A DNA stretch of 64,000 bases, from NCBI RefSeq assembly GCF_037975245.1, contig NC_092581.1:8681303-8745302 (forward strand), written 5' to 3'. Source of the stretch: Apostichopus japonicus. Lineage: Eukaryota; Echinodermata; Holothuroidea; Aspidochirotida; Stichopodidae. The notes under the pieces were generated by a model. That model ran no database searches. It was given only the letters and a program-made list of their open reading frames with translations, and was not told the DNA's origin. Each line of letters starts with the position of its first letter. Position 1 is the stretch's first letter. This document shows, piece after piece, positions 2,568-10,100 of the stretch. Both the position numbers and the translations under genes were made by a program.

Positions 2568-3684
2568 CGGAAGAACCAACCATTATCTGGAGGTACGGTA
2601 TATATGCTGCCTTTTTTTTTTCTTTAATCTGTAATCATATTTTTTATTAATTCAAATGCTATTTTACTTTATAATCGTAATTGAAGTGACATATAGTTTA
2701 TTCAGTTTTTAACGTTAACGTAGTGACTAGTACTAGGCCTACTTCCGTGTATTTCGGGCACCTCGTTTATCTATTTACAAGGTCCGTCTGAAACTTGTGT
2801 TTGCATTTGACACCAATCCGGAAATGACTTTTGCACTGTAGAGGTCTTTGTTCTGACATTAGCTATTTTTTTATCAGTTGCTTTGAAAAAAAACCTGACA
2901 TTTCTTACCATTGTTTTTTTTCACTGGCAAACAAGCCCACCGTGTGTCATGTGCGTGTTGACATCTTGCTTTTTCGTTTCAACTGCAGTCTCGGTAGACG
3001 GTTAATCGATTTACTGTTGAGGCTCGACTGTTGAGGCTCGACAACAACAAAACACACACTTGTGCAAAAAGGTGGCTGCCTAGAAGTGTAAGACCATTCT
3101 TTTTTCTGGTCACAATATTGGTGGTTTTAATTAATTCAGCAGCATATTCAATTGTACTTATATTTTAACTTTTTTGGGGGCCAGCCAATTAAGACCCACC
3201 GTACCTGTAGTGCTACTTATATGTACATGCAACTTTAAGTACTATCTACTCCGTTGCTTCAGCCCACTTGGCTTTTGTGAAGAAAAATCAAACCTACATT
3301 GCAATTTGTGTCATAGGCATACATGCATAGACAGTTGTGCTTAAAACATCAGCAAACAGACTGGTTGAAATGAAGCAACAGGGAAGTGTTGCATTGCAGC
3401 TGCTAGCTAAATGTGAAGGAGAGGAGACATTGCGGAGGTTCATGAAATACCCCTTACTCCCTGTAACTTTTTAAGAAAAAGTCGCCCAGGATAGAACCTG
3501 GGCACGAAAACAAAACTACCAAACGACTGATCCGCTCTCAGCCCCAGTCCCCTTGCATCGGGACTGTGACTGTGTGATCATCGTCGGGTGTGCATCACCA
3601 TTCCCCTCGAAAGGAAACAGATACTAAACATGATCTTATCCAAAAGGCCCTGTTCCACCTTCGCTTGGGACTCCGGATGGCTTT

Positions 3685-5019
3685 TTGGCGAAGACAAATA
3701 AGAGCAGTGGGATGAACTACATCACTAAAAATATATTCTCTGAAGTAGTGTTGAATGCACCTGATGAAGTGATGTATGTTGAGGATGGAAATGCTCTTTT
3801 CTACTGTATTAAAACACAGAAGACATTTGCAGACATCAGTCGAGCTTCGATTCCCATGGCCACATCGGGTAAGCGGGAAAAAGTTTTCTTCAGCACAGAC
3901 AGCTATGAGCCACAATCAATCAAGTGCCAGGAACGGTTGGATCGAGGTGCAGGGGAAAGACGTATCATCAAAGGGAGCAGCACCCGCTGTACTGAAAGCT
4001 GGTCGTCATTCTTGGAAAACGATAATAATTAAGTCCAGTTAATTGATCTCCTTCAGAAGTGTTGGACAGAATCAACTACAGCCAAGAATGTCATCCTTGT
4101 CAATGCAGGCAAAGCATTTCAGATGAAATCAGGTAGTTCGTCGGAGATCCTTGAATTGTATTCCACCCAAGAGGAAACGGACACACGGGTTGTCCTCTAC
4201 TGCTTGCATGCTGCAAGAACTGGGTACAAAACAGTGGTTGTCCATAGTCCAGACAGTGACGTATTTGTTATACTCATGCACTTTGCTGCTACCATTGGGA
4301 TAACGGTGTTGTTTGAAACGGGAAACGGCAACAAGAGGAGTCTCCTTAACATCACTGCTTTAGCGGCTGATCTATCACCAAAAAAGTGCAATGCCCTGCT
4401 GGGATTGCATGCTTTCACCAGGTGCGACAGCACAAGCTGCTTCAAAGGCAAAGGTAAACTCAACCCCATTAAGCTCATTGAATCTAACCCCAGATTTGAG
4501 GATACCTTTGTCGAGGTTGGTGAACAGTGGGAGGTTTCGGCTGATCTTAAGAAGGGCCTGGAGGAATTCACATGCCGGATGTACTCCAACAGAAAAAACG
4601 AGCCACAGACATAAATGAACTGCGCTGGAATCTGATCCAAAAGAAGTCAGAGGGGAAGGTGTCAGTAAAAAAAAAGAACATCGACCTAGCAAAGCTCCCA
4701 CCATTGATGCGGAGCTAGTTTGGAGCAGCACTGCAGACGGGCCAACTATCAAGTTTGCATCTGGAAGCGGGCTGCAGAGAATTGTCCAGCTGTTCCTCGT
4801 CCTTGGTGCAATCATGGATGGGCCCTTGAAGGTGACACAGTTGTGCCAAAGTGGTACGAAGGTGATCCCTTGCCACAGCAGCTGATCGATTCATTGCCAA
4901 GAGTCATAGATGACGAGTCCGGCGACGACATTGACAAAGAAGACGAGAGTGAGTGCGAAGATGTCGGAGGCAGTGACAGTGATAGCGACCAAGAACTATA
5001 TGATGTTATAAACTTGTGA
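3685..5019 (+). pseudogene. Transposon protein with XPG/FEN1-like nuclease signature, broken
   Basis: The main frame is open from 3685 with one stop at 4030-4032, then reads 4123-4614; frameshifts near 4612 and 4715 lead to the tail at 4720-5019. The conserved core, numbered from the Met at 4123, is EETDTR (17-22), SPDSDVFVIL (42-51), CNALLGLHAFTRCDST (89-104) and KGKGK (108-112). Order and spacing resemble FEN1/XPG PIN-like nucleases: acidic ExE, then DxD about 20 residues on, then GxD about 55 residues on, then a glycine-lysine turn that grips DNA. The usual G before CD is R here. The tail has the block RRANYQVCIWKRA and ends in an acidic D/E/S stretch. Proteins of this type are common in cnidarian and echinoderm genomes, usually annotated as uncharacterised. 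The mobile-element role is inferred from the surrounding TIRs. Confidence 0.7.
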
Positions 5020-5173
5020 GGCAGAGGTGTGTTGAAATTCTCTTCTGATTTGTCACCAGATAAGCCAACAAATTAAATTATTAAGGTTTAAATGGTTTAA
5101 TTGCATCCTGGGCGGTTCTTCCACAGAATAATTACTTTTTTTTTTCACTGGACGACGCGCGGCTTTGCGTCCA

Positions 5174-5237
5174 ACGAAAATAAATTAGTTCGGCAAACAA
5201 TGCTTTATAACTTCTTTGCGTTCCATTTTTTTCCTGT
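5174..5237 (-). repeat. Inner half of the right TIR of the Academ-like element
   Basis: Reverse complement of about 2504-2567 (motif aacgcaaGgaagttataaag in the left copy). It was separated from the outer half by the TTAA-flanked insertion. Confidence 0.85.
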
Positions 5238-5384
5238 TTAAAGGAGAAATGAACTCTGGGTTTTTTAAGTGTACATGCGGTAGGGGATATTTTTCTGATA
5301 CCATTTATGAAATTACTAAGCAAAATATAGTTTCCCTGAATTTTACGCGAATTTCCCAATTATTTTTTTTTAACCCATTGAACA

Positions 5385-5460
5385 ACGGCCATTTTGTTAA
5401 TTTGAGGATTGAGGGCTCTTCAAAAGTGACGTAGGCTAGCCACATCGTAACTTCAAAACA
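5385..5460 (+). promoter_or_regulatory. Possible promoter of the THAP gene fragment
   Basis: A ggccattttg (YY1-like) motif and a TGACGTAG (CRE-like) motif lie about 80-150 bp upstream of the THAP Met. A similar gccattttg on the opposite strand near 6445-6455 lies ahead of the antisense frame. This is a motif-level guess only. Confidence 0.25.
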
Positions 5461-5535
5461 ATGAAGCTTTGCATACGAGTTATATCTATTCACACTATGT
5501 TCGAGCATCTTGCTTCGCATATTTCACCGGTTAAA

Positions 5536-5751
5536 ATGCCCGAATGCCAAGCCTTTGGTTGTGTTAACCGACGAGGGGAAGAGGGAGCAGAAAAAGGTAA
5601 AAGATATTTCGTTATTCCAGATGAATTAAAATATCCGGAAAAGACAGAACTTTCACTGAGGTGTACAGTACCTGTTCGTCATGTTCTCAGCAGCCGTAGG
5701 AATAAGATTCTTCTTCTTGTACCTCAAGAAATTTACAAAACAGAGTTCTAA
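5536..5751 (+). pseudogene. THAP zinc-finger fragment
   Basis: The Met at 5536 starts MPECQAFGCVNRRG, with later GKRYFVIPDELKYPEKTEL. This is the first half of a THAP (C2CH) DNA-binding domain: start methionine, paired cysteines, then a basic-aromatic block and a Pro before the first helix. The expected CxxH and the AVPTIF-type end are absent; from about residue 43 the sequence changes character, where it overlaps the antisense ballast frame. THAP domains bind DNA and occur in Kolobok and P-element transposases. An in-frame Met lies upstream at 5461, but the THAP family always starts close to the first cysteine, so 5536 is preferred. Confidence 0.65.
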
Positions 5752-6198
5752 ATGAACTGGCTGCAAAAATATCGGGGAGAATTCAGGTCTGTTGGTCAGA
5801 CATTCTCCTGCGTTCAACAAAGCTTTTTCCGCGAACAATCCATAGCAGCATACCCTCCCCTTGTCGCTTTCCAATGGCAAACAGAGTGCACACAGACACC
5901 ATTCTTCGCAGTGGCTCGTGGAATCGGTATTCGTATCAGCAACGGAATTCGACCCAACATCACCAACAGTCGCGGACTGATTCTTTGCACAAACTCCTCC
6001 TCTCGATGTATCAGTTCTTACTCTGAATATTCTGGTTCGAAAAGATACGATTCCAATCCAAAGGCTTCCATATTTTTTTTTTTTTGAAGATATTTGCTCG
6101 ACAGTAAATTGGAGTGCAATGATGGACGTAAGTAACGCTATCGCTAGGACTGAGTACGGTATGCGTGTTGAAAGCAATCTAAACACGTTAAAAATCAA
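5653..6198 (-). pseudogene. P2X7 'ballast'-type cysteine domain, antisense inside the Kolobok-like element
   Basis: The minus-strand frame of 181 codons holds, at residues 96-153, SHCEEWCLCALCLPLES, GRVCCYG, GECLTNRPEF and FLQPVHLELCFVNF. The pattern CxxxCxCxxC ... CC ... C(L/I)...P.F ... C.NxWVLxxAY matches the zinc-coordinating C-terminal ballast domain of P2X7 receptors; here the usual Trp-Val-Leu is PVHLEL. The domain also occurs in many invertebrate proteins without a channel. No P2X channel part is present. The first 60 residues are not recognisable and may be intron. A GT at the end of MTNR suggests a lost downstream exon. The family match is by eye and the role in the element is unknown. 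Confidence 0.6.
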
Positions 6199-6588
6199 AT
6201 CCTTGAAAAGATCCCAAAATTTATATTTCTACTGATACTCGTTACAATAACAAATTTCACACACTTTTTAAGCATTTTTACAGATCAATAAAGACAAAAG
6301 ATATTTTTTGATCGATATTTTATTCATTACTATTGTTGAAAGTACAATTCTAATTATTTTAGGGATTGGCAACTATTTTGTCTTGAAATACGCGAAGCGG
6401 CTCGCTTTCGTCACGGTACATCCGGGAACTGGCTCAATTCAAACAAAATGGCGCTACACATGAACTACATTCAAATCGTTTTTTCACTTCAAAGAAGGGA
6501 TTTTTATGCTTTTCTTTTGCTTTTACTGGAAAGACCATCTGTCAAAACGTAAGAATGGATGCAAAAAAAACTAGGGTTTATTTCTCCT

Positions 6589-6691
6589 TTAACGTGGATA
6601 TTATTGTTGAGTAATAAATTACGAATCTTTCCATATAGGTTTTGTTTAGCCCTCCGGGTGTTCCACGGAGCTCAAAAATCCGATGGATCTA
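6589..6691 (-). repeat. Outer half of the right TIR of the Academ-like element
   Basis: Reverse complement of 2401 to about 2503: it carries the same segments ending ...ccgatggatcta. Its inner partner is 5174-5237. Confidence 0.85.
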
Positions 6692-6959
6692 TATGTATCA
6701 AGGCATGTGGTGATATTGTTTAGCCCCAAGTAAAAGGTTTGATAAGAAGGTTTGATAAGATGGATTAAGCTGAATTAAACATTTCAGTGGATCATCGTCT
6801 TCTGACCACACAATGGACTTTATGACTAGGTTTCTGCACTATTGATAAAGAAAGTATACAAACATGCAGTGAAATGTACCCAGCTTGTTGGTCATATAAA
6901 AGAGGAAAAACAAAGCTAAATGTTATAAAGGTATTTATCCCCCTATATAAGATCTCGAG

Positions 6960-7111
6960 TGTATATATATATATTTATATATATATATATATATATAGCC
7001 TATATATATATAGCCTATATATATATAGCCTATATATATATATATATAGCCTATATATATATATATAGCCTATATATATATATGTGTGTGTGTATGTGTG
7101 TGTGTGTGTAG
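6960..7111. repeat. TA microsatellite with GCC interruptions, then TG tract
   Basis: TA dinucleotides are broken at near-regular intervals by 'gcc' (tatagcctata, at least five times) and pass into tgtgtg. It is not coding, although one frame stays open. Confidence 0.95.
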
Positions 7112-10100
7112 GCTACAGCAAAAACAATATAACCTTCTGGAAAACACCTCACTCTCGAAAAAATAACTCCAACGGTCACGTGATGCCATCATAGATACAT
7201 TTACATAAAATAAAATAAAATTTGACTACAATAATTCCAATCGCTTGATTCAACGCCAAGATTAACGTCAAGGTATAAACTGGTTTGAACCAGATTACAC
7301 CGTCTCCAAACACATGTTTTCTTCAACGGTATAGTTTTAATGCCTCGCCTCCAAGAAATTGTGTTGTGGTCGTAAGGTTAATATGGCTACCCTTGACAAA
7401 CGGAAATTGTTACCATTGAACTAATGAGATGTTTGGTACGTGTTGTCATCTTAGTTGTAAATTTTCAGACAGAGTTCAGAGGGAAAACTTGTTTAATTGC
7501 GATTGCCAACGGGACTAGCTTTAAAGTAATGATTCATTCCATGTTAGGAGATAATATTCAATTAATGTATGAACATTGTATTCGAATAGACAGGAGCATT
7601 AACTGAGATGTATGGGTACAGGTGGACATTCAATAGATGTAATGCCCCATGTATGTCCTCTGTTGCCAATTTCTATTTAATTTTGATTGAAAATTCGCCC
7701 ACTGTGTGGGAAACCCCGGTCGAGCGAAGGTCTAATATATAAGGGAATGCGTACACGGGATGTAAGAAGGCTTATTCAAAATGGTGCTTTGGCAAATTTT
7801 GAACTGATTATATGTTGAGAATTCTCATTCTTTATAGTGCCGAGTGTTTCATCATTTTTCCTGTTGTTGGTTAAAAATATTCATTCTTGGTAGATAATTT
7901 AGATTGTCATAAAAACCACCGCAATGATTAACAAATATAGGGGAAATATCAACCAGGCTATTCTTCAATTCTTTCGACTGGGAACAAGTAAGGTTTTTAG
8001 GCGCCTAGGCGTAGGCCTAGTTCATACGCTGACCAGGATTGCAATATAGCTGTAACACCTTACGGTCAAACAGACTATACTTCTCTACGGAAATATTTTG
8101 GCCAAAATAACGGATATTTTCCTGTAATTTTTGGACAAAACAGTAATAATGAGGATCAGGACCCTTTCCCAAGTGGCTACCATACCCATCCGTAACGGTA
8201 CCCCTCCCCCTATGTGGCACCCGACCGGTACCCGGGCGGACCCCCCCCCCCTCTCCCCGCTTTGTACGCCACTGACTCTATACTAAATTCTAACCAACCA
8301 TTTGTGTACAGTGTATTTTAGTTTCTAAAGCACCCCTCTACTATTGCAGCATCCTTTGTGGTTTTGATGTTTTACTGCATATTTTTCTCGAGAAAGAATA
8401 TTTAATTTTTAATTGTTGCGCAAGTTCGTCTGCTTACCTCAGCTCACGTGTGTCACTTTTTTGTCATTGATTTACGTGTTTGTGTTACTGTGAACGGTTG
8501 TACAATTCATTCTCTTTTTACAATCCAAGCGTATTTCCAGATCATTGTTAGTTTCTCATATTTCTGTTAACCGTTTTCAACTACAATGCATTTTCTTCTT
8601 TTTATGTTTCCTTCTTCTGTGTTATGACTGTTTTGATGGTCATTTTGTTTACGATATGTTCGTTTGCTGCCTATATGTATGCCATGCTGTCAACTATCCA
8701 TTTTGAGATTGAATCTACACACTGAGATCCCCCTGTTAAAACTTGCTAGTGTCATCGCGTCACGCATAGTTTGCAAAGTTTACGAATCACTTTTAGTATT
8801 TACATTCAACCCTTGCTTAGTAAATCATAATGGTGACAGAACAATTATTTCATCCACAAACTTTGTCACAGTGGAATAGTTTTGCGAGTGTTTTTCTTTA
8901 AAATTGTTACCAATTTTTATATTTACACTTTTCATTTTGATTAATTGTGACGTCTATTGTATATTGTTTTACTTGAACTCCTGCTCATACGCGTTTCATG
9001 TGTAACACTCTGGGTGTGAAGTGACTTATTCCTATCATCTCAAACACGTCAAACTTGTACACGTATATGATTCTCACATTTTTAGTTTTAAGTTTCCTAT
9101 TTTCTTTCCTTAACGTCTGAAATTTTAGTTAATTTATTTTATTAATGTTTTTTATTTTAAAATTCTTATATTCGTCTACGTATAAGTTTGCTACAAACAA
9201 CTTTTTACAAATATTGGGGCTTTAAAATATTTGTTATGTTTGTTCTATTCTAGTCTCTGTACAGTATAGACGAGTAGAAACTAGTTTGGCGGTGACTCGA
9301 GATGTGGGGGGAAGGGGGTGGGTGTGGAGAGGGGGTGGCAGTACCGTGACCACAAGGGATCATGGGAAAGGCGTTTTCTGGCTAAGGATGATGGGAAATG
9401 TCTACATATATATGGATATAGGCCTATATCTACAAAATTATTGAAAGGTGGCGAATAAATAACCCTACACTAATATTTTACGATGATGGTGGTGTGAATA
9501 ATACCCAAAAAAAATCTCATCAATAAAAAAAATAATGTGTGGTGAAAAGCTAAGGATGTAGGCATGTCATGTTTGGGTTTTTTGTTTCTCAGTACATACT
9601 GAAGTTAATATAATTTATTAATAATAAACAAATGAAAATTACAGATAAGGTTTTCTCTTGATAAATTTAAATCACACATAATATCCATCCATTAACAAAG
9701 ACAAAAACCACTCACCCACTCCCATCCAAATAATCAAAAAGCTACAAACGGACGACCAGCCCGCAGGGAAACAAAACACCACTCCCCATGCAGCACACCA
9801 GCACCCGAAGAAGGCGCCCCAGATGAACGACAAAATCTCCTTCAATCTGAAGGCGAATGTCAAAGTTCACCGCCGCAAGGACTGGCTGCCAATTGGAACT
9901 CCTTCCCCTCAAAATTATACACATATATTCCTCCAATTACGTTTCTTCAAAATAACTTATTGCCGTATCCTATGCACTTGTTGACTGACGGAGCTTGTTT
10001 CCAGAAGTGCTGGAAACATGTGCAGACTACAGCTCCTATAATTTGCATAGCTAATGAATGTCTATCAGTCAAACGAAAAATAGAGATCTGCTCCTATAGA

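Follow-up and report, generated by a model that had tools for sequence, protein, structure and literature searches.

The ballast domain, known from the C terminus of the vertebrate P2X7 receptor, has been described across Metazoa (Rump 2020, PMC7016195), in a main text where the string 'transpos' has 0 occurrences. A ballast protein of the Kol0 group of Kolobok transposons has since been named KolX, and P2X7 was derived from it (Kojima & Bao 2022, PMC9587614). The passages of the latter paper used here also describe Nanor as a likely domesticated KolX, give the Kolobok termini as 5'-RR/YY-3' in contrast to those of piggyBac, list nucleases or helicases as accessory genes of sister Kolobok lineages, and state a convergent order for KolobokP, in which the gene of an accessory nuclease lies downstream of the transposase and on the complementary strand. 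This paper was the only literature we found on 'KolX'. The strand of KolX is not given in the main-text passages covered here, a scope on which we do not claim that the order is unreported. Here we describe a 1,355-bp element in a 64,000-nucleotide stretch of the Apostichopus japonicus genome (C21:8681303-8745302; the window, meaning this whole stretch). We consider it very probable that the element is an internally deleted, non-autonomous member of a KolX-bearing (Kol0) Kolobok family, whose parents of ~7.5 kb carry KolX as a likely accessory gene.

An earlier note, made from the letters of the window alone, had placed a precisely bounded, TTAA-flanked element at 5242-6588, which is the element described here minus its TTAA ends. 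These bounds were confirmed. The element has a TTAA at each outer end and 29-nt inverted arms that are 86% complementary (Table 1), and we found TTAA at both ends with differing flanks in 8/8 copies of the family (the window copy and L020-L026) and in 3/3 longer relatives (L001, L002 and L005). The TTAA target site duplication typical of Kolobok elements is thus present, as judged from the flanks of the examined copies alone. Inside the TTAA, the window copy and its relatives begin and end with AGGAGAAA...TTTCTCCT, the 5'-RR...YY-3' form. An ungapped search of window positions 4800-7000 detected no direct repeats longer than 19 nt. We searched the genome that holds the window (671.58 Mb) with the whole element and obtained at least 46 matches (best 40 of 120 candidates scored). 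Among the matches listed, 19, including the window copy, cover element positions 1-1355, with identities of 83-100%, mostly 93-95%. Seven fetched copies (L020-L026) are 99.0-99.8% identical to one another and 95.9-96.2% identical to the window copy, indicating that part of the family was amplified recently and that the window copy is older or belongs to another subfamily. We conclude that the element is a member of a multi-copy family, beyond chance.

The earlier note had also predicted an autonomous parent carrying two convergent genes, to be sought as longer copies with the same ends. Three such copies were recovered: L001 481-8163 (7,683 bp), L002 589-7957 (7,369 bp) and L005 577-4207 (3,631 bp). 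Protein searches of the genome likewise returned THAP and ballast matches facing each other, with ~2-9 kb between them. In L001, a plus-strand THAP exon (760-1176; Pfam THAP E 2.5e-12) precedes a plus-strand open reading frame (ORF) of 646 amino acids (3177-5117) that encodes a DDD/E transposase (Mutator-like PF20700, E 8.9e-7), to which the THAP exon is probably spliced; the minus strand carries exons 1 and 2 of a ballast gene. L002 has the plan of L001 on the opposite strand, so that the two-gene convergent parent is found twice, with the termini of the window element. The THAP exons of L001 and L004 both pass the Pfam threshold, and exon 1 of L005 (33.8 bits, 4.2e-8) and of L003 (32.2 bits) passes that of P2RX7_C. 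KolX exon 2 is present in L001, L002, C16c (L019) and C7a (L003+L004). In L001 the splice runs from AACAG/GTAATG at the end of exon 1 to TTTGCAG/ACAAAGA at the start of exon 2 (ACAAAGACG), the joined reading is MTNRQRRLMAYRQ, and the gene terminates in FREVTEALQLE-stop. None of the longer copies lacks the ballast exon, and the seven fetched short copies align end to end with it included; the two outcomes that the earlier note would have taken as fatal, full-length copies devoid of ballast and a unique later insertion in this copy, were therefore not observed.

Alignment to L001 shows how the window copy is built: L001-like positions 1-425 are joined to 6747-7683, with GTG common to both at the join. 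L005 is a separate, different internal deletion within the same family. The window copy is thus an internal deletion of a two-gene parent, with its two blocks joined at a 3-bp microhomology. The plus-strand frame with an ATG at 5536 opens a THAP domain, and the earlier note had set this THAP against a ballast domain on the minus strand. Both are indeed there. However, the THAP-derived sequence stops at the junction, the remainder of the plus-strand ORF being the antisense of the ballast exon, and the fragment by itself gives no Pfam THAP match. The ballast is present solely as exon 1 of a two-exon gene whose exon 2 is deleted: its cysteine part lies in a minus-strand ORF (5656-6228; Pfam P2RX7_C E 9.7e-5, 22.8 bits, slightly below the curated cut-off of 23.5 bits), and its N-terminal motif MEAFGLESYLFEPEYSE (minus-strand ORF 6018-6137) lies in a different frame. 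Hence the window copy encodes no whole protein, and the THAP and ballast pieces in it ride along as passengers that yield no product.

Table 1. Features of the Kolobok element, in window coordinates.
Feature	Coordinates	Strand	Basis
Whole non-autonomous Kolobok element including both TTAA, 1,355 bp	5238..6592	.	Inverted arms, genome copies, TTAA and flanks
Left terminal inverted repeat, beginning TTAA then AGGAGAAAT	5238..5266	+	Inverted-repeat search
Right terminal inverted repeat, finishing ATTTCTCCT then TTAA	6564..6592	-	Inverted-repeat search
Block retained from the parent's left (THAP) end; 88% identical to L001 element positions 1-425	5238..5663	+	Alignment to L001
Start of transposase gene, first ~40 THAP residues (MPECQAFGCVNRRG...)	5536..5663	+	ORF, relatives, same exon of L001 passing Pfam THAP
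Internal deletion junction, GTG in both blocks, ~6.3 kb of L001-like parent gone	5661..5663	.	Alignment to L001
Block retained from the parent's right (KolX) end; 86% identical to L001 element positions 6747-7683	5661..6592	+	Alignment to L001
KolX exon 1 relic (ballast cysteine region), frame broken after N-terminal motif, splice donor side kept, exon 2 gone	5671..6071	-	ORFs, Pfam P2RX7_C, L001 splice site

The arrangement of the two parental genes extends across the genome. On the transposase side, we collected 72 matches in 56 clusters (best 68 of 263 candidates scored). The ballast side comprised 211 clusters, drawn from all 150 rows of one search (best 150 of 471) and 69/124 rows of another, the 55 omitted rows being, by our reading of the list, further pieces of places already included. 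Thirty of the 56 transposase clusters have a ballast neighbour within 5 kb, and the nearest is convergent in 30/30, against an expectation of 0.21 pairs in any orientation. Widening the distance to 15 kb gives 33 convergent neighbours, one in the same orientation and one divergent (0.56 expected). Copies within one lineage are not independent in these counts. For 21/56 transposase clusters there was no ballast match within 15 kb among the matches listed; in the one of these that we inspected (L043), we detected a divergent two-exon KolX at the expected place and on the expected strand. We conclude that the convergent order of transposase and KolX is fixed.

Several other KolX-bearing families were identified. 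A second family is represented by four elements of 10,178, 10,228, 10,239 and 10,227 bp with related ends (TTAAAGGAGACAYAAACCCACA) and the same plan, whose transposases are 57-58% identical to that of L001. In further lineages, with transposases ~33-35% identical to that of L001, most or all of the ballast lies in one exon-like ORF of 155-183 amino acids. A high-copy family (L027-L029, on C12, C16 and C9), read from its left end, begins with TTAA, TTAAAGTGGCCATGACACG and shows ~97% identity over >2.6 kb; its KolX is a relic in which a TGA stop replaces a conserved tryptophan at the same place in 3/3 copies read. The final 61 of the 150 scored ballast rows each carry one TGA and resemble this family. 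In L042, one transposase piece occurs twice in tandem (252-887 and 2602-3237), each 89.6% identical to the C9 transposase, upstream of a single KolX.

We aligned the proteins of these elements. The transposase residues D298, D366, D387xxH390, H446/H451/C465/H467 and E517 (L001 numbering) are invariant in 6/6 aligned sequences, and seven cysteines (C53, C55, C58, C69, C70, C77 and C143) are kept in 9/9 aligned one-exon KolX/ballast proteins. Between lineages, five pairs gave proportions of nonsynonymous (pN) and synonymous (pS) differences of 0.25-0.38 and 0.84-0.96 for KolX, and of 0.28-0.37 and 0.76-0.84 for the transposase; since pS is saturated, these values indicate constraint and not a rate. 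We built trees from 22 loci (transposase, 505 columns; KolX, 153 columns). As read from the printed trees, eight representative lineages have an identical unrooted order in both, namely (C9,C7b), (C5,C8), L034, C17c, (L001,C7a), and the Mantel r is 0.68, a value reached in 85 of 40,320 permutations. The trees show a largely common history of KolX and the transposase, their co-diversification, with one lineage unsettled.

The KolX protein of L009 matches P2X7 over the cysteine domain with an E of 1.5e-23, and a search of PDB with it returned solely P2X7 chains at E up to 0.001. An AlphaFold2 model of the same protein, made from a 9-row alignment, reached a mean predicted local distance difference test (pLDDT) score of 52, and no fold search was based on it; hence the link between KolX and P2X7 is one of sequence homology, not of predicted fold. 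In a small tree, P2X7 stands beside lineages with a one-exon ballast, with weak support (63 and 72). The P2X channel domain (PF00864) has five matches in the genome (nine candidates, all scored), all at C15:15.10-15.19 Mb, whereas the element is on C21; an independent fusion of P2X and ballast in this genome is thereby ruled out.

Of the best 33 ballast rows, nine were free of stop codons and had no transposase listed within 15 kb; we fetched six of these. Three of the six carry convergent transposase remnants (L030 and L034, and L031 with a weak match of 37 residues, E 4e-4), and in the other three (L032, L033 and L035) we detected no transposase. One of the latter, at C19 ~11.5237-11.5243 Mb (L032:4377-4985, plus strand), is a single-copy ballast exon with a splice acceptor (Pfam P2RX7_C 6e-32); the runner-up among its scored genome matches is 37% identical, and no transposase was detected in the 19 kb around it (L045 and L032). 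It is a candidate domesticated KolX. We claim no fusion of this exon to an upstream membrane-type exon pair (L045), since the hydrophobic exon has a splice phase that is mismatched to it (judged by eye) and the pair matched no Pfam family over the cut-off.

We propose that the parent was an element of ~7.5 kb in which a THAP exon is followed, toward the right, by a transposase exon (D-D-DxxH-H2CH-E) and, on the opposite strand, by a two-exon KolX. An accident of excision or gap repair, as the junction suggests, would then have fused its first ~0.43 kb to its last ~0.93 kb through the 3-bp microhomology. The short form has both ends and was presumably amplified with a transposase acting in trans. 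As for KolX in the parents, it most likely serves its own transposase as an accessory protein, with a presumed role in transposition, because of its fixed convergent position, its conserved cysteines, the constraint on its amino acids and a tree that largely matches that of the transposase. Some observations weigh against this account. The nearest parent is just 86-88% identical to the window family, and the exact founder was not found. KolX exon 1 of L001 is frame-broken near its start and the transposase of L002 is split over two frames, so that no fully intact copy of their family (family A) is shown. L044, whose sole ballast neighbour is 9.7 kb away in the same orientation, shows no KolX across the 5.4 kb of downstream sequence retrieved. 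Support is poor at some nodes of the trees (for KolX, 0.47), and when L043, the C19 exon and P2X7 are included in a second KolX tree, L034 is placed beside C9/C7b (support 34), which leaves its position unsettled. The nonsynonymous-to-synonymous rate ratio (dN/dS) is not available for deep pairs, and for shallow KolX pairs it is 0.27 (C8/C2) and 0.70 (L034/L031).

Host fragments can ride in non-autonomous transposons, and the single-copy C19 exon with no detected transposase could be taken to mean that the ballast is a host gene captured by chance in one copy. We regard this as highly improbable: the ballast exon is in all eight family copies examined, ballast lies beside transposases down to ~30% identity in the convergent order described above and with matching trees, and even L043, listed without ballast, proved to have its KolX. 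A piggyBac-type transposon with an unrelated THAP scrap would equally account for the TTAA target sites, which piggyBac also uses; however, the termini past the TTAA are AG...CT, of the Kolobok 5'-RR/YY-3' form, and L001 and L002, which are longer but end alike, have THAP together with a DDD/E transposase that contains DxxH and H2CH, so that this explanation is highly improbable too. The parents and the gene order lead us to reject both.

A different question is what KolX does in the parents. It could aid the element otherwise than in transposition, for example as an antagonist of host signalling or silencing, and be kept by linkage. No biochemical role for KolX was found in the literature passages covered, which leaves room for this; on the other hand, the accessory genes of other Kolobok lineages described in passages of PMC9587614 are DNA-processing enzymes, so that acting in transposition is the more economical guess, and we hold the alternative to be possible but not favoured. 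As to the step in transposition, our tentative guess, by analogy with the nucleases or helicases of sister Kolobok lineages (PMC9587614, passages), is that KolX might be a zinc-cluster cofactor that assists either the transposase complex or the processing of the ends. More speculatively than the co-diversification itself, KolX and the Kol0 transposase may be inherited as one convergent unit across all the diversity found in this genome, with KolX an obligate partner rather than a dispensable passenger, the C19 exon may be a second (echinoderm) domestication besides P2X7/Nanor, and P2X7 may come from the one-exon KolX branch; we would not expect this whole scheme to hold.

Two further features lie near the element in the window. 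Two open frames (193 and 103 amino acids; 4033-5019, plus strand) adjoin it, the end of the second being very acidic; they matched no Pfam family over the cut-off and may be another mobile-element gene. A microsatellite, TA-rich and TG-rich with repeated TATAGCC units, occupies 6960-7110, ~370 bp beyond the right end.

The earlier note's broader proposal, that the ballast is a Kolobok accessory protein and offers a route to P2X7, agrees with our tests, but the link between ballast and Kolobok elements and the capture by P2X were already published in 2022 (PMC9587614). Elements complete from TTAA to TTAA in one invertebrate genome confirm the widespread ballast domain as a transposon gene and thereby account for its copy number, and the fixed order and largely common history make the function of KolX testable. 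Possibly new are the fixed convergent order, the co-diversification of transposase and KolX, and the single-copy C19 ballast exon with no detected transposase.

Among known systems, the family is closest to Kol0 (type Kolobok-1_XT, from Xenopus), with which it shares, as described in passages of PMC9587614 and PMC6004289, the TTAA target, RR/YY termini, a DDD/E transposase with THAP and H2CH, and a ballast protein. THAP in the transposase gene (L001 and L004), the DDD/E residues with C/DxxH and H2CH, and KolX as a second protein with ballast are found in the relatives; the window copy has ~40 THAP residues that do not pass Pfam, no such transposase motifs and a KolX relic only, and differs from Kol0 in being a protein-less deletion derivative. 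The assignment to Kol0 is based on KolX, the ends and the motifs. KolobokP, as portrayed in the PMC9587614 passages, belongs to the same superfamily, and there too an accessory gene follows the transposase on the complementary strand; but this gene encodes a His-Me nuclease where the relatives of the window element have KolX, and the ends of KolobokP are long direct repeats of ~450 or 660 bp, whereas the ungapped search around the window element detected none above 19 nt. The C-terminal ballast (ZCD) of vertebrate P2X7 has the cysteine domain matched by the KolX of L009, whereas no P2X receptor domain is fused to, or near, the ballast here. In contrast to piggyBac, the termini and transposase of the window element's family are of the Kolobok type.
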